Below are positions 33,944 to 38,397 of a stretch of DNA of 51,943 nt, piece after piece. Numbering within the stretch: position 1 is the first letter of the stretch; every line of letters begins with the position of its first letter. The notes below the pieces were generated by a model. The model was not told the DNA's origin and did not search any database. It worked only from the letters and a program-made list of their open reading frames with translations. This DNA is from Halothiobacillaceae bacterium (GTDB lineage: Bacteria; Pseudomonadota; Gammaproteobacteria; Halothiobacillales; Halothiobacillaceae): positions 1 through 51,943 of the forward strand of contig JAQVHL010000014.1 in assembly GCA_028696185.1 (NCBI GenBank). The letters are read 5' to 3'. The translations under genes were made by a program, and so were the position numbers.

Positions 33944-34279
33944 ATGGTCGTCGATTTGCTGCGTGAGGATGCCTGTGAGCAGCTGGAAGCGTGCGTTGGT
34001 GCTGCCTTCAACGTCATGGGACCGGACGCGTCTTCTTGGCTGGAACTGAAACTGATCCGTGTGGAGCGGCGCCCCGCGCGCAAGCTTGGCGATCAATCGC
34101 GGTCCTTTGTCCGTGTGCGCGAACATCCTTTCCTGGCCGAGTTTCTTGGGCCGTTGCAACCGATCCTGCGTGATGGAAGCGTTGAGTTGCGGGATGCTGA
34201 GGGACGCTTGTGGCCCTTGTTCCTGTCCGCCTACGCGGCAGATCGGGAGGGTGTCTGGTATGAGGCGATCGTGGGGTGA
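33944..34279 (+). CDS. DUF6916-like small protein
   Basis: A 111-residue protein with the ending RLWPLFLSAYAADREGVWYEAIVG and an internal FVRVREHPFLAEFL block, matching small proteins found beside tail-collar genes (DUF6916-like). GAGGAAAG precedes the ATG. It is 36 bases after the GNAT gene and converges on the collar gene. The role is unknown; the family name is from memory of the pattern, so treat it as tentative. Confidence 0.7.
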   Translation: MVVDLLREDACEQLEACVGAAFNVMGPDASSWLELKLIRVERRPARKLGDQSRSFVRVREHPFLAEFLGPLQPILRDGSVELRDAEGRLWPLFLSAYAADREGVWYEAIVG

Positions 34280-34316: not shown

Positions 34317-34856
34317 TTAGTTACGAGATGGATAGATTCCTTCCAGAGCAATGGCGAAATTGAGCGCCAGGTATGGGGCGTGATTGTCGAAGGGAATGCC
34401 CTGGCCTGTCACTGAGGTTTGTCCGAGCATGACCGGAGTCCCTTGAGGGGCGTAACCGTTGACCGGTGGAGGCGGACGTCCCTCTGTGCCGACCAGTCCG
34501 GCCGGCAGGCTGTTCTGGCTGGGCTTTGATGCCGTGCCGTCTTCCGCGTAGGCCATACAGGCGTGACTGTGCGGCGGAAGGTTGGTGCTTTGCAGCGTCA
34601 CGCTTTCTGTTCCTGCCTTTTGCCCGAGTGTATACGGCGAGAGTCCGGGGCCTTGCCCCGCGCCTACCGGGATTCTGCCACGCAGGTCGGGCAGTGCGAA
34701 TGTGGTCTGTCCATTGCCGCCATAGGTTGTCCCCAGCAGGGAGTACAAAGCGGTATTTGTGCCGATGGCAAGAGTCTGTCCTTCGCAGAAGGCCCATCCC
34801 CGTGGGGAGAAGTTGATCGGCCAGATCATGATCGTGCCCAGAAAGGGTTCACTCAT
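34317..34856 (-). CDS. Phage tail-collar domain protein (MdpB-like)
   Basis: A 179-residue protein with the tail-collar fold: N-terminal GTIMIWPINFSPRGWAFCEG, then TTFALPDLRGRIPVGAGQG, as in so-called microcystin-dependent and tail-fibre proteins. No signal peptide is visible. No other phage structural gene is in the window, so this is not part of a prophage. It converges on the DUF6916-like and GNAT genes, a neighbour pattern repeated in other bacteria. The function is unknown. Confidence 0.9.
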   Translation of the reverse strand: MSEPFLGTIMIWPINFSPRGWAFCEGQTLAIGTNTALYSLLGTTYGGNGQTTFALPDLRGRIPVGAGQGPGLSPYTLGQKAGTESVTLQSTNLPPHSHACMAYAEDGTASKPSQNSLPAGLVGTEGRPPPPVNGYAPQGTPVMLGQTSVTGQGIPFDNHAPYLALNFAIALEGIYPSRN

Positions 34857-35116: not shown

Positions 35117-35818
35117 ATGGATGCTCGGATATGGAGGTTCAGGATGCGCGATGCCTTGTTCGCTGGCCTTTTGATGGCGGCGTTCGGCCCGGTATGTGCG
35201 GCGGGCATCCAGCTTCCTGCGGGGGCTGGGTTGAATCTGGGCGATGGGCGACTGGCGATGCCGTGTGGCGATCTGCTCATCGAAGGGAGGCTTGCGGCCG
35301 GTAGCGTTGCCGTCCTGGGGGCGCGTGATGTTTCGATAGGCCCCTCCGGGCTGTTGCAGGGGGCAAGCGCACAGTTGCATGTTTCCGGTAACTGGTCGAA
35401 CCAAGGTGTGTTTGACGCGGGGAGCAGCAGCGTGGTCTTTGAGGATGGTTGTCGCCCCGTTTCCACGCTCAGTGGCGATAATCGGTTTTACGATCTCGTT
35501 TTTGTCAGCACCACTGGGAAAACCTTCTTGCTTGAGTCGGGGCGCACCCAGACGGTTGCACATGGTCTGAGCGTAACGGGCATCCCCGGACAGCCTGTCA
35601 TTCTGGACAGCACAGCGGGCGACATACCCCCAGCCTATCTTTCCCTGGAGCCGGGGGCCGGACATACACTCAGCGATTCCATTGTTCGTGCGGGGCATAT
35701 CGTCATGGGTGGTGCTCCGATTCCAACCTTATCTGCGCTGTCCTTTCTGCTGCTGATTCTCGCTGGCTTGTGGGCGGGCGGGCGTGCCCTGGTACGCCGT
35801 AACTTGGCAATGGCCTGA
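35117..35818 (+). CDS. IPTL-CTERM surface protein
   Basis: A 233-residue exported protein. The signal peptide is MDARIWRFRMRDALFAGLLMAAFGPVCAA. The middle contains beta-rich repeats (GDLLIEGRLAAGS, LHVSGNWSNQGVFDAGSSSVVFEDG), similar in style to adhesin-like filaments. The C terminus reads APIPTLSALSFLLLILAGLWAGGRALVRRN, the IPTL motif followed by a hydrophobic helix and basic residues. That is the IPTL-CTERM protein-sorting tail. Such tails are believed to be processed by an exosortase-like system, none of which is in the window. It is 37 bases before the collagen-like gene. Confidence 0.84.
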   Translation: MDARIWRFRMRDALFAGLLMAAFGPVCAAGIQLPAGAGLNLGDGRLAMPCGDLLIEGRLAAGSVAVLGARDVSIGPSGLLQGASAQLHVSGNWSNQGVFDAGSSSVVFEDGCRPVSTLSGDNRFYDLVFVSTTGKTFLLESGRTQTVAHGLSVTGIPGQPVILDSTAGDIPPAYLSLEPGAGHTLSDSIVRAGHIVMGGAPIPTLSALSFLLLILAGLWAGGRALVRRNLAMA

Positions 35819-35855: not shown

Positions 35856-37022
35856 ATGAAAAAGAACAACATGTCTGCGTCCCAGGTCGTTGCGGTCATG
35901 ACGGCAGCGATGTCAGCGAGCGCCTGTCCGGCGTATGCCGCCGATGTGGTGATTTCCCCACCGGCAGGAGGTGGCGTCTCGATCACCGACAGTAGCGGAG
36001 GTAGTGCGCGTTTGCGGGTGGACGACTCGGGAGCGGTGAGCGTGCCGGGACTGCCGTCCGCAGCCCAGCATGGTAGCGTGGTTTGTTATGGCAGTGGCGG
36101 TGTACTGGGTAACTGCGATCCTGGGGCCATTACCGGTCCACAGGGGCCGCAAGGTGTGGCTGGGGCGCAGGGCGCCCAAGGTGTCGCGGGGCCGCAGGGC
36201 ACGGTAGGCGCGCAGGGAGCCACGGGGGCGATGGGGCCTGCAGGTGTGATGGGGCCGCAAGGTGCGGCGGGCCCCCAGGGCGTCTCCGGTACGGTAGGGG
36301 CGCAAGGGGCCCAGGGCAACACAGGGCCGGGTGTGCTTTCCGGGGCGGCGGATCCGGCGGCAGGGGTGGGTAATGATGGTGATTTCTATCTTAATACCGC
36401 GACATCCACGATGTTCGGCCCGAAAAGTGCGGGCAGCTGGGGAACGGGGTTTTCCCTATTGGGTGCTCAGGGGATTCAGGGGCCACAGGGTGCTCAGGGG
36501 GTTCAAGGGGCGCAGGGAAGTGTTGGGGCGCAAGGGACGACCGGTGCCATCGGGCCTGCCGGTCCTCAGGGGGTACAGGGCGCCCAGGGGGCAACCGGAG
36601 CGACCGGAGCACAAGGGCCTCAGGGCGTCCAGGGTAGTGCGGGGAGCTACACCGCAGCGGCAGGTTCAGGGCTTGAAATCAGTGGCAGCTCTATCCAGGT
36701 GCTGAAAACCGGCTGTTCGGCGGGACAGGTATTGCAGTTTGACGGGACGAACTGGAGCTGCGCGACGCCTTCCGGAGGCGGTTTCACCATCCGTTCTGCT
36801 GTGAATGGCGCCCAGGGGTATAGTGTTGACGCGAGCTGCAATCCTGGCGAGAAGGCCATTGGCGGTTCGTGTTATACCTCGGATACCCAAGGCGGTGTTT
36901 ATGGAGAGGCGTTCTTGTGTGGTGCGGCTCTTTGTTCCAGCGGGGCGACCGCGCCTACCGGGTGGCGCTGTGAATACAACAGTTCAAAGACCAACTGGCA
37001 GGCTTTTGTTTTCTGTCAGTAG
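35856..37022 (+). CDS. Secreted collagen-like protein
   Basis: A 388-residue protein with a signal peptide (MKKNNMSASQ... to PAYA). It has two collagen-type blocks of Gly-x-y triplets: 22 from residue 94 and 21 from residue 203, dominated by GAQ, GPQ and GVQ. A linker of about 43 residues (VLSGAADPAAGVGNDGDFYL...) separates them. The collagen blocks carry no charged residues. A C-terminal domain has eight cysteines and ends FVFCQ, so it is probably disulphide-stabilised. GGAGAG precedes the ATG at 35856; the frame from 35784 is not used. A strong terminator follows at 37048. A triple-helical surface filament is inferred; no anchor motif was seen. Confidence 0.9.
   Translation: MKKNNMSASQVVAVMTAAMSASACPAYAADVVISPPAGGGVSITDSSGGSARLRVDDSGAVSVPGLPSAAQHGSVVCYGSGGVLGNCDPGAITGPQGPQGVAGAQGAQGVAGPQGTVGAQGATGAMGPAGVMGPQGAAGPQGVSGTVGAQGAQGNTGPGVLSGAADPAAGVGNDGDFYLNTATSTMFGPKSAGSWGTGFSLLGAQGIQGPQGAQGVQGAQGSVGAQGTTGAIGPAGPQGVQGAQGATGATGAQGPQGVQGSAGSYTAAAGSGLEISGSSIQVLKTGCSAGQVLQFDGTNWSCATPSGGGFTIRSAVNGAQGYSVDASCNPGEKAIGGSCYTSDTQGGVYGEAFLCGAALCSSGATAPTGWRCEYNSSKTNWQAFVFCQ
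36135..36650 (+). repeat. Collagen-like Gly-x-y coding repeat
   Basis: Imperfect 9-base periodicity (GGN xxx CAG) encodes the two triplet blocks at 36135-36332 and 36462-36650. Such repeats can expand or contract by slippage. Confidence 0.8.
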
Positions 37023-37047
37023 GCGCTGAAAATATGGACGATTTTGC

Positions 37048-37076
37048 CGCTCCCTCTTCGGAGGGAGTGTTTTTTT
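37048..37076 (+). terminator. Strong intrinsic terminator after the collagen-like gene
   Basis: A 9-bp stem around CTCCCTC/GAGGGAG closed by a TTCG tetraloop is followed by a run of seven T, 25 bases after the stop codon. Confidence 0.92.
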
Positions 37077-37092
37077 AACGCCTTTTTTTGTG

Positions 37093-38397
37093 ATGCGTCC
37101 CATGCTGTTCAGTCTGTTTACCCCAACACATCGTCCCGATTTTTTGCTGGAAACCTTCGCGTCCTTGTTGCGACAGTCTGAACGGGATTGGGAGTGGGTC
37201 ATCGTGCCCAATGGCGGGGCACAGATTCCTGAGCCGATCATCCGTCATCCGCAGGTTCGTGTGGTCGTGGCGCCGGAGTATGTCGGGCGCATGGGGGTGG
37301 GGGCGCTCAAGCGGTTTGCCTGCGAGCAGTGTCATGGGCGTTATCTGGTCGAGCTGGATCACGATGATCTGCTGGCCTCGAACGCGCTGGCCCGGATACG
37401 ACAGAGCATCGAGGAGACGGCAGCAGGTTTCTTCTATTCGGACTTCGCCAATTTCTACGCCGATGGGCGTTGCCAGGTGTATGACGCGGCCTACGGCTGG
37501 GAGAGTTATCCGGTGGAAGTCGATGGTCGTCCGTACGTTGCCATGCGTGCCTTCGCCACGAATGCAAGCAGTCTGTCTGCCATCTTCTACGCGCCGAACC
37601 ATGTGCGGGTCTGGGCGCGGGAAGCGTACTTCCAGGCGGGCGGGCACGATCCCCTGCTGCCGGTGTGCGACGATTACGATCTGATCTGCCGCACCTATCT
37701 TGCGGGTGTGCGTTTTGAGCACATCCCGGAATGTCTCTACCTGTATCGCATGCAGCCGGAAGGGACGAACACCTTCCTTGCGCGCAATCAGGAGATTCAG
37801 ACCCGGCAGCAGGAGCTGTCCAACCGCTATATCTACGACCTGATTCGGGAGGAGTGCCGGCGCAGCGGATTGCCGATGCTCGATCTGGGGGGCGCACACG
37901 GTTGCCCGGAGGGGTTTGTCAGTGTTGATGTCGAGGGGGCGGCGGTCAACTGTGATATCCGTCGGGGGCTGCCGTTCGAGGAGGGGACGGTCGGTTGCGT
38001 GCGTGCCTATGATTTTTTGGAGCATGTGCCGGGCTGTGGCAGCGTGAGCTGCCGCCATGGCGCGGACGGCGCACCGCGTTGCACGGTAGGCATGATGAAC
38101 GAGATTTACCGTGTGCTTGCGCCGGGGGGCTGGCTGATTACCCGCACGCCCTCGACCGACGGACGTGGTGCGTTCCAGGATCCGACGCATGTCTCGTTCT
38201 GGAATCCGAATTCCTTCTGGTATTACACACGGCGAGCCCAGGCCGCTTATGTGCGTGGCATCGACTGTCGCTTTCAGGCGCCGCGCTTGTGGCAGGCCTA
38301 CCCGAGCCCCTGGCATGAGGAGAACCGGATTCTCTATGTTTTTGCGGATCTGGTGGCCCTGAAAGGGCAGCGTCAGCCGGGTATCTGCGAAATCTGA
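37093..38397 (+). CDS. Glycosyltransferase family 2 fused to a methyltransferase
   Basis: A 434-residue two-domain protein. Residues 1-250 form a GT-A domain (MLFSLFTPTHRPDFL, DHDD at 89-92, GGHDPLLPVCDDYDLICR). Residues about 255-430 form a class I SAM methyltransferase with MLDLGGAHGCPEGFVSVDVEG and AYDFLEHVPG. A GTG at 37090 is directly before the chosen ATG. It lies just past the collagen-like gene's terminator and so probably has its own promoter, which I did not find. Modification of the nearby collagen-like protein or a surface glycan is possible but unproven. Confidence 0.85.
   Translation: MRPMLFSLFTPTHRPDFLLETFASLLRQSERDWEWVIVPNGGAQIPEPIIRHPQVRVVVAPEYVGRMGVGALKRFACEQCHGRYLVELDHDDLLASNALARIRQSIEETAAGFFYSDFANFYADGRCQVYDAAYGWESYPVEVDGRPYVAMRAFATNASSLSAIFYAPNHVRVWAREAYFQAGGHDPLLPVCDDYDLICRTYLAGVRFEHIPECLYLYRMQPEGTNTFLARNQEIQTRQQELSNRYIYDLIREECRRSGLPMLDLGGAHGCPEGFVSVDVEGAAVNCDIRRGLPFEEGTVGCVRAYDFLEHVPGCGSVSCRHGADGAPRCTVGMMNEIYRVLAPGGWLITRTPSTDGRGAFQDPTHVSFWNPNSFWYYTRRAQAAYVRGIDCRFQAPRLWQAYPSPWHEENRILYVFADLVALKGQRQPGICEI

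Follow-up and report, generated by a model that had tools for sequence, protein, structure and literature searches.

A collagen-like gene paired with a glycosyltransferase-methyltransferase fusion in a Halothiobacillaceae bacterium, other bacteria and phages: a likely collagen-decorating enzyme

Two neighbouring genes encode a collagen-like protein and a fused enzyme

The window analysed here is a stretch of 51,943 nucleotides from a Halothiobacillaceae bacterium (contig JAQVHL010000014.1 of assembly GCA_028696185.1). It holds a gene for a collagen-like protein followed, on the same strand, by a gene for a fused glycosyltransferase (GT) and methyltransferase (MT). The original prediction placed the pair at 35856-38397, which proved correct: the first gene runs from an ATG at 35856 to a stop at 37022, and the second ends at 38397.

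35856..37022, forward strand: collagen-like protein gene, 388 aa, ATG at 35856 and stop at 37022; product predicted to be exported
Residues about 1-28: Sec-type signal peptide, judged by eye
Residues 29-93: Cys-containing head
36135..36332, forward strand: Gly-X-Y block 1, uncharged and Gln-rich (residues 94-159, 22 triplets)
36333-36461: short interruption between the blocks (residues 160-202, 43 residues, GNDGDFYLNTATSTMFGPKSAGSW)
36462..36650, forward strand: Gly-X-Y block 2, uncharged and Gln-rich (residues 203-265, 21 triplets)
Residues about 269-388: Cys-rich C-terminal domain
37048-37076, forward strand: intrinsic terminator between the two genes, CGCTCCCTC-TTCG-GAGGGAGTG-TTTTTTT
37102..38397, forward strand: GT2-methyltransferase fusion, 431 aa, assigned from profiles, motifs and AlphaFold
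Fusion residues 86-89 and 190-191: GT motifs DHDD and DD
Fusion residues 261-264, 276, 307-308 and 354-363: MT motifs DLGG, D276, EH and GRGAxQDPTH

The collagen-like protein matches the Pfam Collagen model PF01391 in two stretches (59 bits against a cut-off of 27.2, E 3.8e-16), and both Gly-X-Y blocks are perfect. None of the 43 triplets contains a charged residue (0%), Lys included, and the Y positions are occupied by Gln (53%), Ala (14%) and Thr (12%), in line with the original description of the blocks as uncharged and Gln-rich. The Thr sites of that description are indeed present, with GAT counted 3 times in the 43 triplets, but they are scarce, Ser and Thr together reaching 0.28 per triplet. 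The Cys-rich head that had also been proposed was mostly a misreading: eight of the 11 Cys lie in the tail (287-387), two (77 and 87) around the start of the helix and one (24) in the signal peptide. The C-terminal domain is 56% identical to its counterpart in the L010 partner collagen, and a PDB search with the domain, using a query inexact in its first residues, returned no useful match. Stretches resembling the interruption module occur in the bacterial L061 and viral L283 collagens; as a link to the enzyme the module was rejected, being rare and without any tie to it.

The fusion joins a GT2 domain to a class I methyltransferase domain

The ATG at 37102 agrees with the starts of homologues, and a GTG at 37090 is also possible. 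PF00535 matches the fusion with 34 bits (cut-off 23.3), and Methyltransf_11 reaches 18 bits, under its cut-off of 21.2, yet 14 of the 23 family members do match; the domain profile search found GT2 and MT domains only, and no lysyl hydroxylase domain. AlphaFold, given a 23-sequence alignment, returned a confident model with two domains (pLDDT 92.6, pTM 0.90). Among solved structures the best match to the GT half is the chondroitin polymerase K4CP (Z 22.8, rmsd 2.8, 223 aligned), with polypeptide GalNAc-transferases (ppGalNAc-transferases) also matching at Z about 17. For the MT half, modelled separately (pLDDT 92.5), the matches are class I SAM methyltransferases, with Z up to 13.7 (rmsd 2.6, 145 aligned). 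The profiles and the model together bear out the two-domain sugar/methyl transferase of the original prediction.

The catalytic motifs are strongly conserved. D86, D88, D89 and D191 are invariant in the 23 sequences and D190 is kept in at least 90%, giving the DxD metal site and downstream acidic residue of GT2/GT-A enzymes. In the MT domain G263 is invariant and D261, L262 and D276 nearly so across the same sequences, which, with the Rossmann-like fold, corresponds to the glycine-rich motif I and the acidic residue after strand 2 of class I SAM enzymes. A block GRGAxQDPTHxSFWNxNSFWY is likewise invariant or nearly so, as are DHDD, DD 190-191 and DLGG. The MT domain also has a C-x4-C-x-H-x7-C loop (codons 312-327 from the ATG), a possible metal site, which is found in bacterial and some phage members and missing in others. 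We considered this knuckle (Cys314, Cys319, His321 and Cys329 in another numbering) as an essential element and rejected it; since many phage members are without it, it must be optional.

The fusion begins straight at the GT domain and its sequence has neither a signal peptide nor a membrane segment; it would therefore act in the cytoplasm, ahead of export. Every close full-length relative has the GT and the MT in one protein, and this fusion together with the joint model fits sequential action on one glycan. An alternative is that the MT acts directly on protein (on Gln, Asn, another side chain or a terminus), so that the two domains mark the chain independently. The MT fold is of a generic class I kind from which the substrate cannot be read, and relatives consisting of the MT without a GT exist (L017, L038-L041), as this alternative would have it. 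It is nevertheless improbable in our estimate, given the constant fusion in close full-length relatives, the confidence of the joint model and the precedent of a methylated sugar, 2-O-methyl anthrose, on the bacterial collagen BclA (PMC6222408).

The enzyme is sporadic and shared with phages

We searched for the fusion in 56 relatives, including genomes of the same family, and found it in none, whereas it is present in 2 of 369 genomes of the class; it is thus a sporadic gene. Collagens occur in 96 of the 369. Close homologues (60-79% identity) are found in eight scattered MAGs, in one of them as the MT alone, and in 9 of 63 genomes of G100's order (Thiotrichaceae-like where named). Further homologues are carried by 24 IMG/VR contigs, some of them MT-only, and by the cultured cyanophage S-CRM01 (38% identity over the full length). 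In the tree, bacterial enzymes lie among phage enzymes and neither group forms a single clade; the direction of transfer is not settled by it. In four viral contigs (L038, L039, L040 and L041) the MT half stands alone, directly after a ribonucleotide-reductase-like gene of 641-642 aa (TPPWGFNGMGEIVFLRTYSR).

The enzyme gene is paired with collagen genes across lineages

In 14 bacterial genomes the flank could be tested, and 11 of these have a collagen gene upstream of the enzyme on the same strand. It lies directly upstream of the fusion in this genome (G000) and in L010, L012, L013, L105, L106, L107, L108 and L110, and one 164-aa ORF separates the two in L020 and L109. The collagen gene of L014 is 0.8 kb downstream of the enzyme; in L011, L015 and L016 the flanks were examined and no collagen gene was nearby, and neither G397 nor G398 yielded a collagen. 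The flank of L111 is cut by the contig end, and several other contigs end inside repeats. In L106 and L107, by contrast, contigs of more than 3.5 Mb give an uncut flank with an entire collagen gene, the fusion and then another GT2 (6077-7162 in L106, 4900-5985 in L107), possibly a three-gene cassette in which the last enzyme extends the glycan.

Phages show the same association. In 12 phage contigs (L021-L026, L028, L031, L032, L034, L036 and L042) the enzyme has a collagen-like gene as its neighbour or only a few genes away, and the pairing is almost gapless in L032, L034 and L036; in S-CRM01 and in the 190-kb contig L037 the collagens are elsewhere in the same genome and not beside the enzyme. 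On a Peribacillus plasmid, a GT with 32% identity sits between two collagen-like genes. A scan of non-partner collagen loci, which extended about 1.5 kb beyond the match, showed none flanked by a related GT or MT. In viral contigs, 115 collagen-like loci were picked out with a codon pattern in which Gly alone is fixed, and only 1 of them had a related GT. The pairing is specific to this enzyme and is not a general feature of collagens. Conserved gene pairing, the absence of which the original prediction had named as evidence against itself, holds across unrelated proteobacteria and phages. The N- and C-terminal parts of the partners are mostly unrelated between lineages, so the natural substrate would be the Gly-X-Y chain.

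The two genes are separated here by 79 nt containing the terminator at 37048-37076, which has nine pairs, a UUCG loop and seven U; the RNA fold of the gap has an energy of -25.9 kcal/mol (z -2.6). With so strong a terminator between the genes, simple co-transcription is not assured, and this counts against the idea of an operon. A 14-pair terminator-like hairpin also lies between the two genes of L012, and none was seen in L010 or L106, so such hairpins are not in every relative. One reading of the terminator would be much fibre and little enzyme. It could also be taken to mean that the two neighbours share no function, the enzyme being one for surface sugars that is unrelated to the collagen; the absence of the enzyme from all 56 relatives searched could be read likewise. 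Such chance adjacency is largely refuted, since 11 bacterial genomes and also phages retain the pair, and we give it very little credence. Prophage origin of the locus was considered as well and is not favoured, the flanks being housekeeping genes both here and in L106 and L107.

Partner collagens are rich in Gln at the Y position

In a wide comparison, the rows of which are not fully independent, Gln at Y was much more frequent in partner collagens than in controls, both in bacteria (0.45 vs 0.09, p 9e-6) and in phages (0.61 vs 0.13, p 2e-7). Because of this dependence, we repeated the test inside three genera with one collagen per genome, and the enzyme-bearing genomes ranked above all others in each genus (stratified permutation p 5e-5). 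Partner collagens were also less charged than controls (p 3e-4 in bacteria, 0.04 in phages). Thr at Y was higher with the enzyme within genera (p 0.009), and Thr-rich repeats were tried as a signature and rejected, as in the wide samples Y-Thr did not differ (p 0.23 and 0.16) whereas Gln did in both. The S-CRM01 collagen has 0.67 Gln at Y, and the two Peribacillus collagens have 0.75 and 0.90. As exceptions, Thr and Ser together make up 0.06 per triplet in L034, and Gln at Y is 0.06 in L107; with one partner nearly free of Thr/Ser and another poor in Gln, no one residue that could serve as acceptor is plentiful in every partner. This genome has a second collagen-like gene (L018, contig C55, 4758-6203) with 0.39 Gln at Y, and no GT gene was recognised among its neighbours; its product could be a second substrate of the fusion.

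The association with collagen also bears on the main rival explanation, namely that the enzyme makes or modifies a surface polysaccharide (LPS, capsule or exopolysaccharide) and joins collagen-like adhesins as one of a set of exchangeable genes for the surface or for host recognition. The nearest solved structures include the polysaccharide enzymes K4CP, WrtF and SpsA, the enzymes of L011, L015 and L016 have no adjacent collagen, and phage GTs encoded close to tail genes are frequently credited with modifying the host envelope (PMC7029224). A link that is specific to collagen, has a single orientation in bacteria and follows repeat composition within genera would be unexpected for such an enzyme, and apart from the one further GT2 in L106 and L107 we saw no polysaccharide cluster around the pair here or in those two genomes. 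On balance, we regard a role in polysaccharide synthesis as a minority possibility.

A proposed route of collagen modification

The collagen-like protein is probably a fibre, secreted or on the cell surface, and the fusion its dedicated enzyme, which would glycosylate the unfolded Gly-X-Y chain in the cytoplasm and then methylate the sugar. The original suggestion of the fused enzyme as a plausible collagen modifier has gained support from the pairing, its specificity to this enzyme and the composition within genera, and the modification itself is a prediction. In the proposed route, the soluble fusion would act on the chain before export: its N-terminal inverting GT2 (GT-A) domain would take a sugar from a nucleotide donor and attach it to side chains of the unfolded Gly-X-Y region, and the C-terminal class I SAM domain would next methylate the transferred sugar. 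The modified chain would then leave through Sec and trimerise. In phages, the same kind of enzyme may decorate collagen-like tail fibres inside the host cytoplasm. The glycan might serve hydration or stability, protection, or recognition by host or phage. What counts against this explanation are the terminator here and the terminator-like hairpin in L012, the enzymes without an adjacent collagen, the envelope role often assigned to phage GTs and the uneven Thr/Ser and Gln content of the partners.

The acceptors would likely be Ser/Thr at X or Y, Thr/Ser being the conservative choice, with Gln at Y, the feature that tracks the enzyme, serving for recognition or, less likely, as the acceptor. 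In a bolder version, GT2-methyltransferases would form a mobile family that passes between phages and bacteria, reads Gly-X-Gln and places a methylated glycan on Gln itself. Besides Gly, only Gln at Y is enriched across partners, including phage fibres poor in Ser/Thr, and at the same time it reaches only 0.06 in L107; we consider this version a long shot.

Comparison with known collagen-modifying systems

Glycosylation of bacterial collagens has been demonstrated in only a few spore formers (PMC8968730). In C. difficile, sgtA lies immediately upstream of bclA3, and SgtA adds beta-O-GlcNAc to Thr of collagen-repeat peptides in vitro (PMC7157674). As in that exosporium system, a GT gene adjoins a collagen-like gene here and the neighbourhood is conserved, and the fusion would act much as SgtA does on the Gly-X-Y repeats of BclA3, with a methyltransferase in addition. 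In contrast, SgtA is a GlcNAc transferase for which methylation is unmentioned (PMC7157674), its target is a spore protein, and its gene is upstream of the collagen gene whereas the enzyme here is downstream. The two systems are likened by gene neighbourhood and description.

BclA of the B. anthracis exosporium is, like the protein proposed here, a collagen-like glycoprotein with a methylated sugar in its glycan; it is a spore-coat protein whose tetrasaccharide requires several sugar enzymes, whereas here there is one fused enzyme in a Gram-negative genome. The methylated sugar of Bacillus anthracis BclA is 2-O-methylated (PMC6222408). Mimivirus L230, a bifunctional collagen lysyl hydroxylase/glucosyltransferase (PMC9614988), is similarly a viral enzyme of two domains, specialised for collagen-like proteins. 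The GT of L230 is similar to human GLT25D1, and the lysyl hydroxylase joined to it acts on Lys, whereas here a GT2 is joined to an MT and the repeats are Lys-free; with no lysyl hydroxylase domain and no charged residue in 43 triplets, we rejected an L230-type enzyme. SCRM01_090c of the Synechococcus phage S-CRM01 is a full-length relative (38%) from a genome that also encodes Gly-X-Gln collagen-like proteins; it is annotated as a glycosyl transferase or methyltransferase with no specific function, and is not beside its collagen genes.

GTs that serve the collagen encoded next to them are already known as a kind. In the literature that we searched we found neither the fusion of a GT2 with a methyltransferase, nor such a system in Gram-negative bacteria and phages, nor the link to Gly-X-Gln. 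No description of this pairing turned up there, which does not prove that none exists, and the enzyme is likely a collagen decorator not described before. If so, a portable two-gene system for glycosylated collagen would be spread over Gram-negative bacteria and the fibres of phages, and a GT related to it is carried by a Bacillus-type plasmid; some phage 'glycosyltransferases' now placed in envelope or DNA modification would turn out to modify fibres instead. The reading also yields a testable prediction about the repeat sequence that is recognised.

Neighbouring genes

Lastly, three genes lie upstream of the pair.

33944-34279, forward strand: DUF6916 gene, near the collagen region
34317-34856, reverse strand: phage tail collar-domain protein gene, convergent to the DUF6916 gene
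35117-35818, forward strand: gene for an exported 233-aa protein

A profile search recognised no other phage genes near the DUF6916 and tail collar genes. By eye, the C-terminus of the 233-aa protein (APIPTLSALSFLLLILAGLWAGGRALVRR) resembles an IPTL-CTERM sorting tail; with the TIGR04174 model, 5 other proteins of the genome exceed the cut-off, this one not being listed. Elsewhere in the same genome (G000:C96:205188-205736), which retains several IPTL-CTERM proteins, an exosortase-like match contains one in-frame TGA and may be a broken gene.
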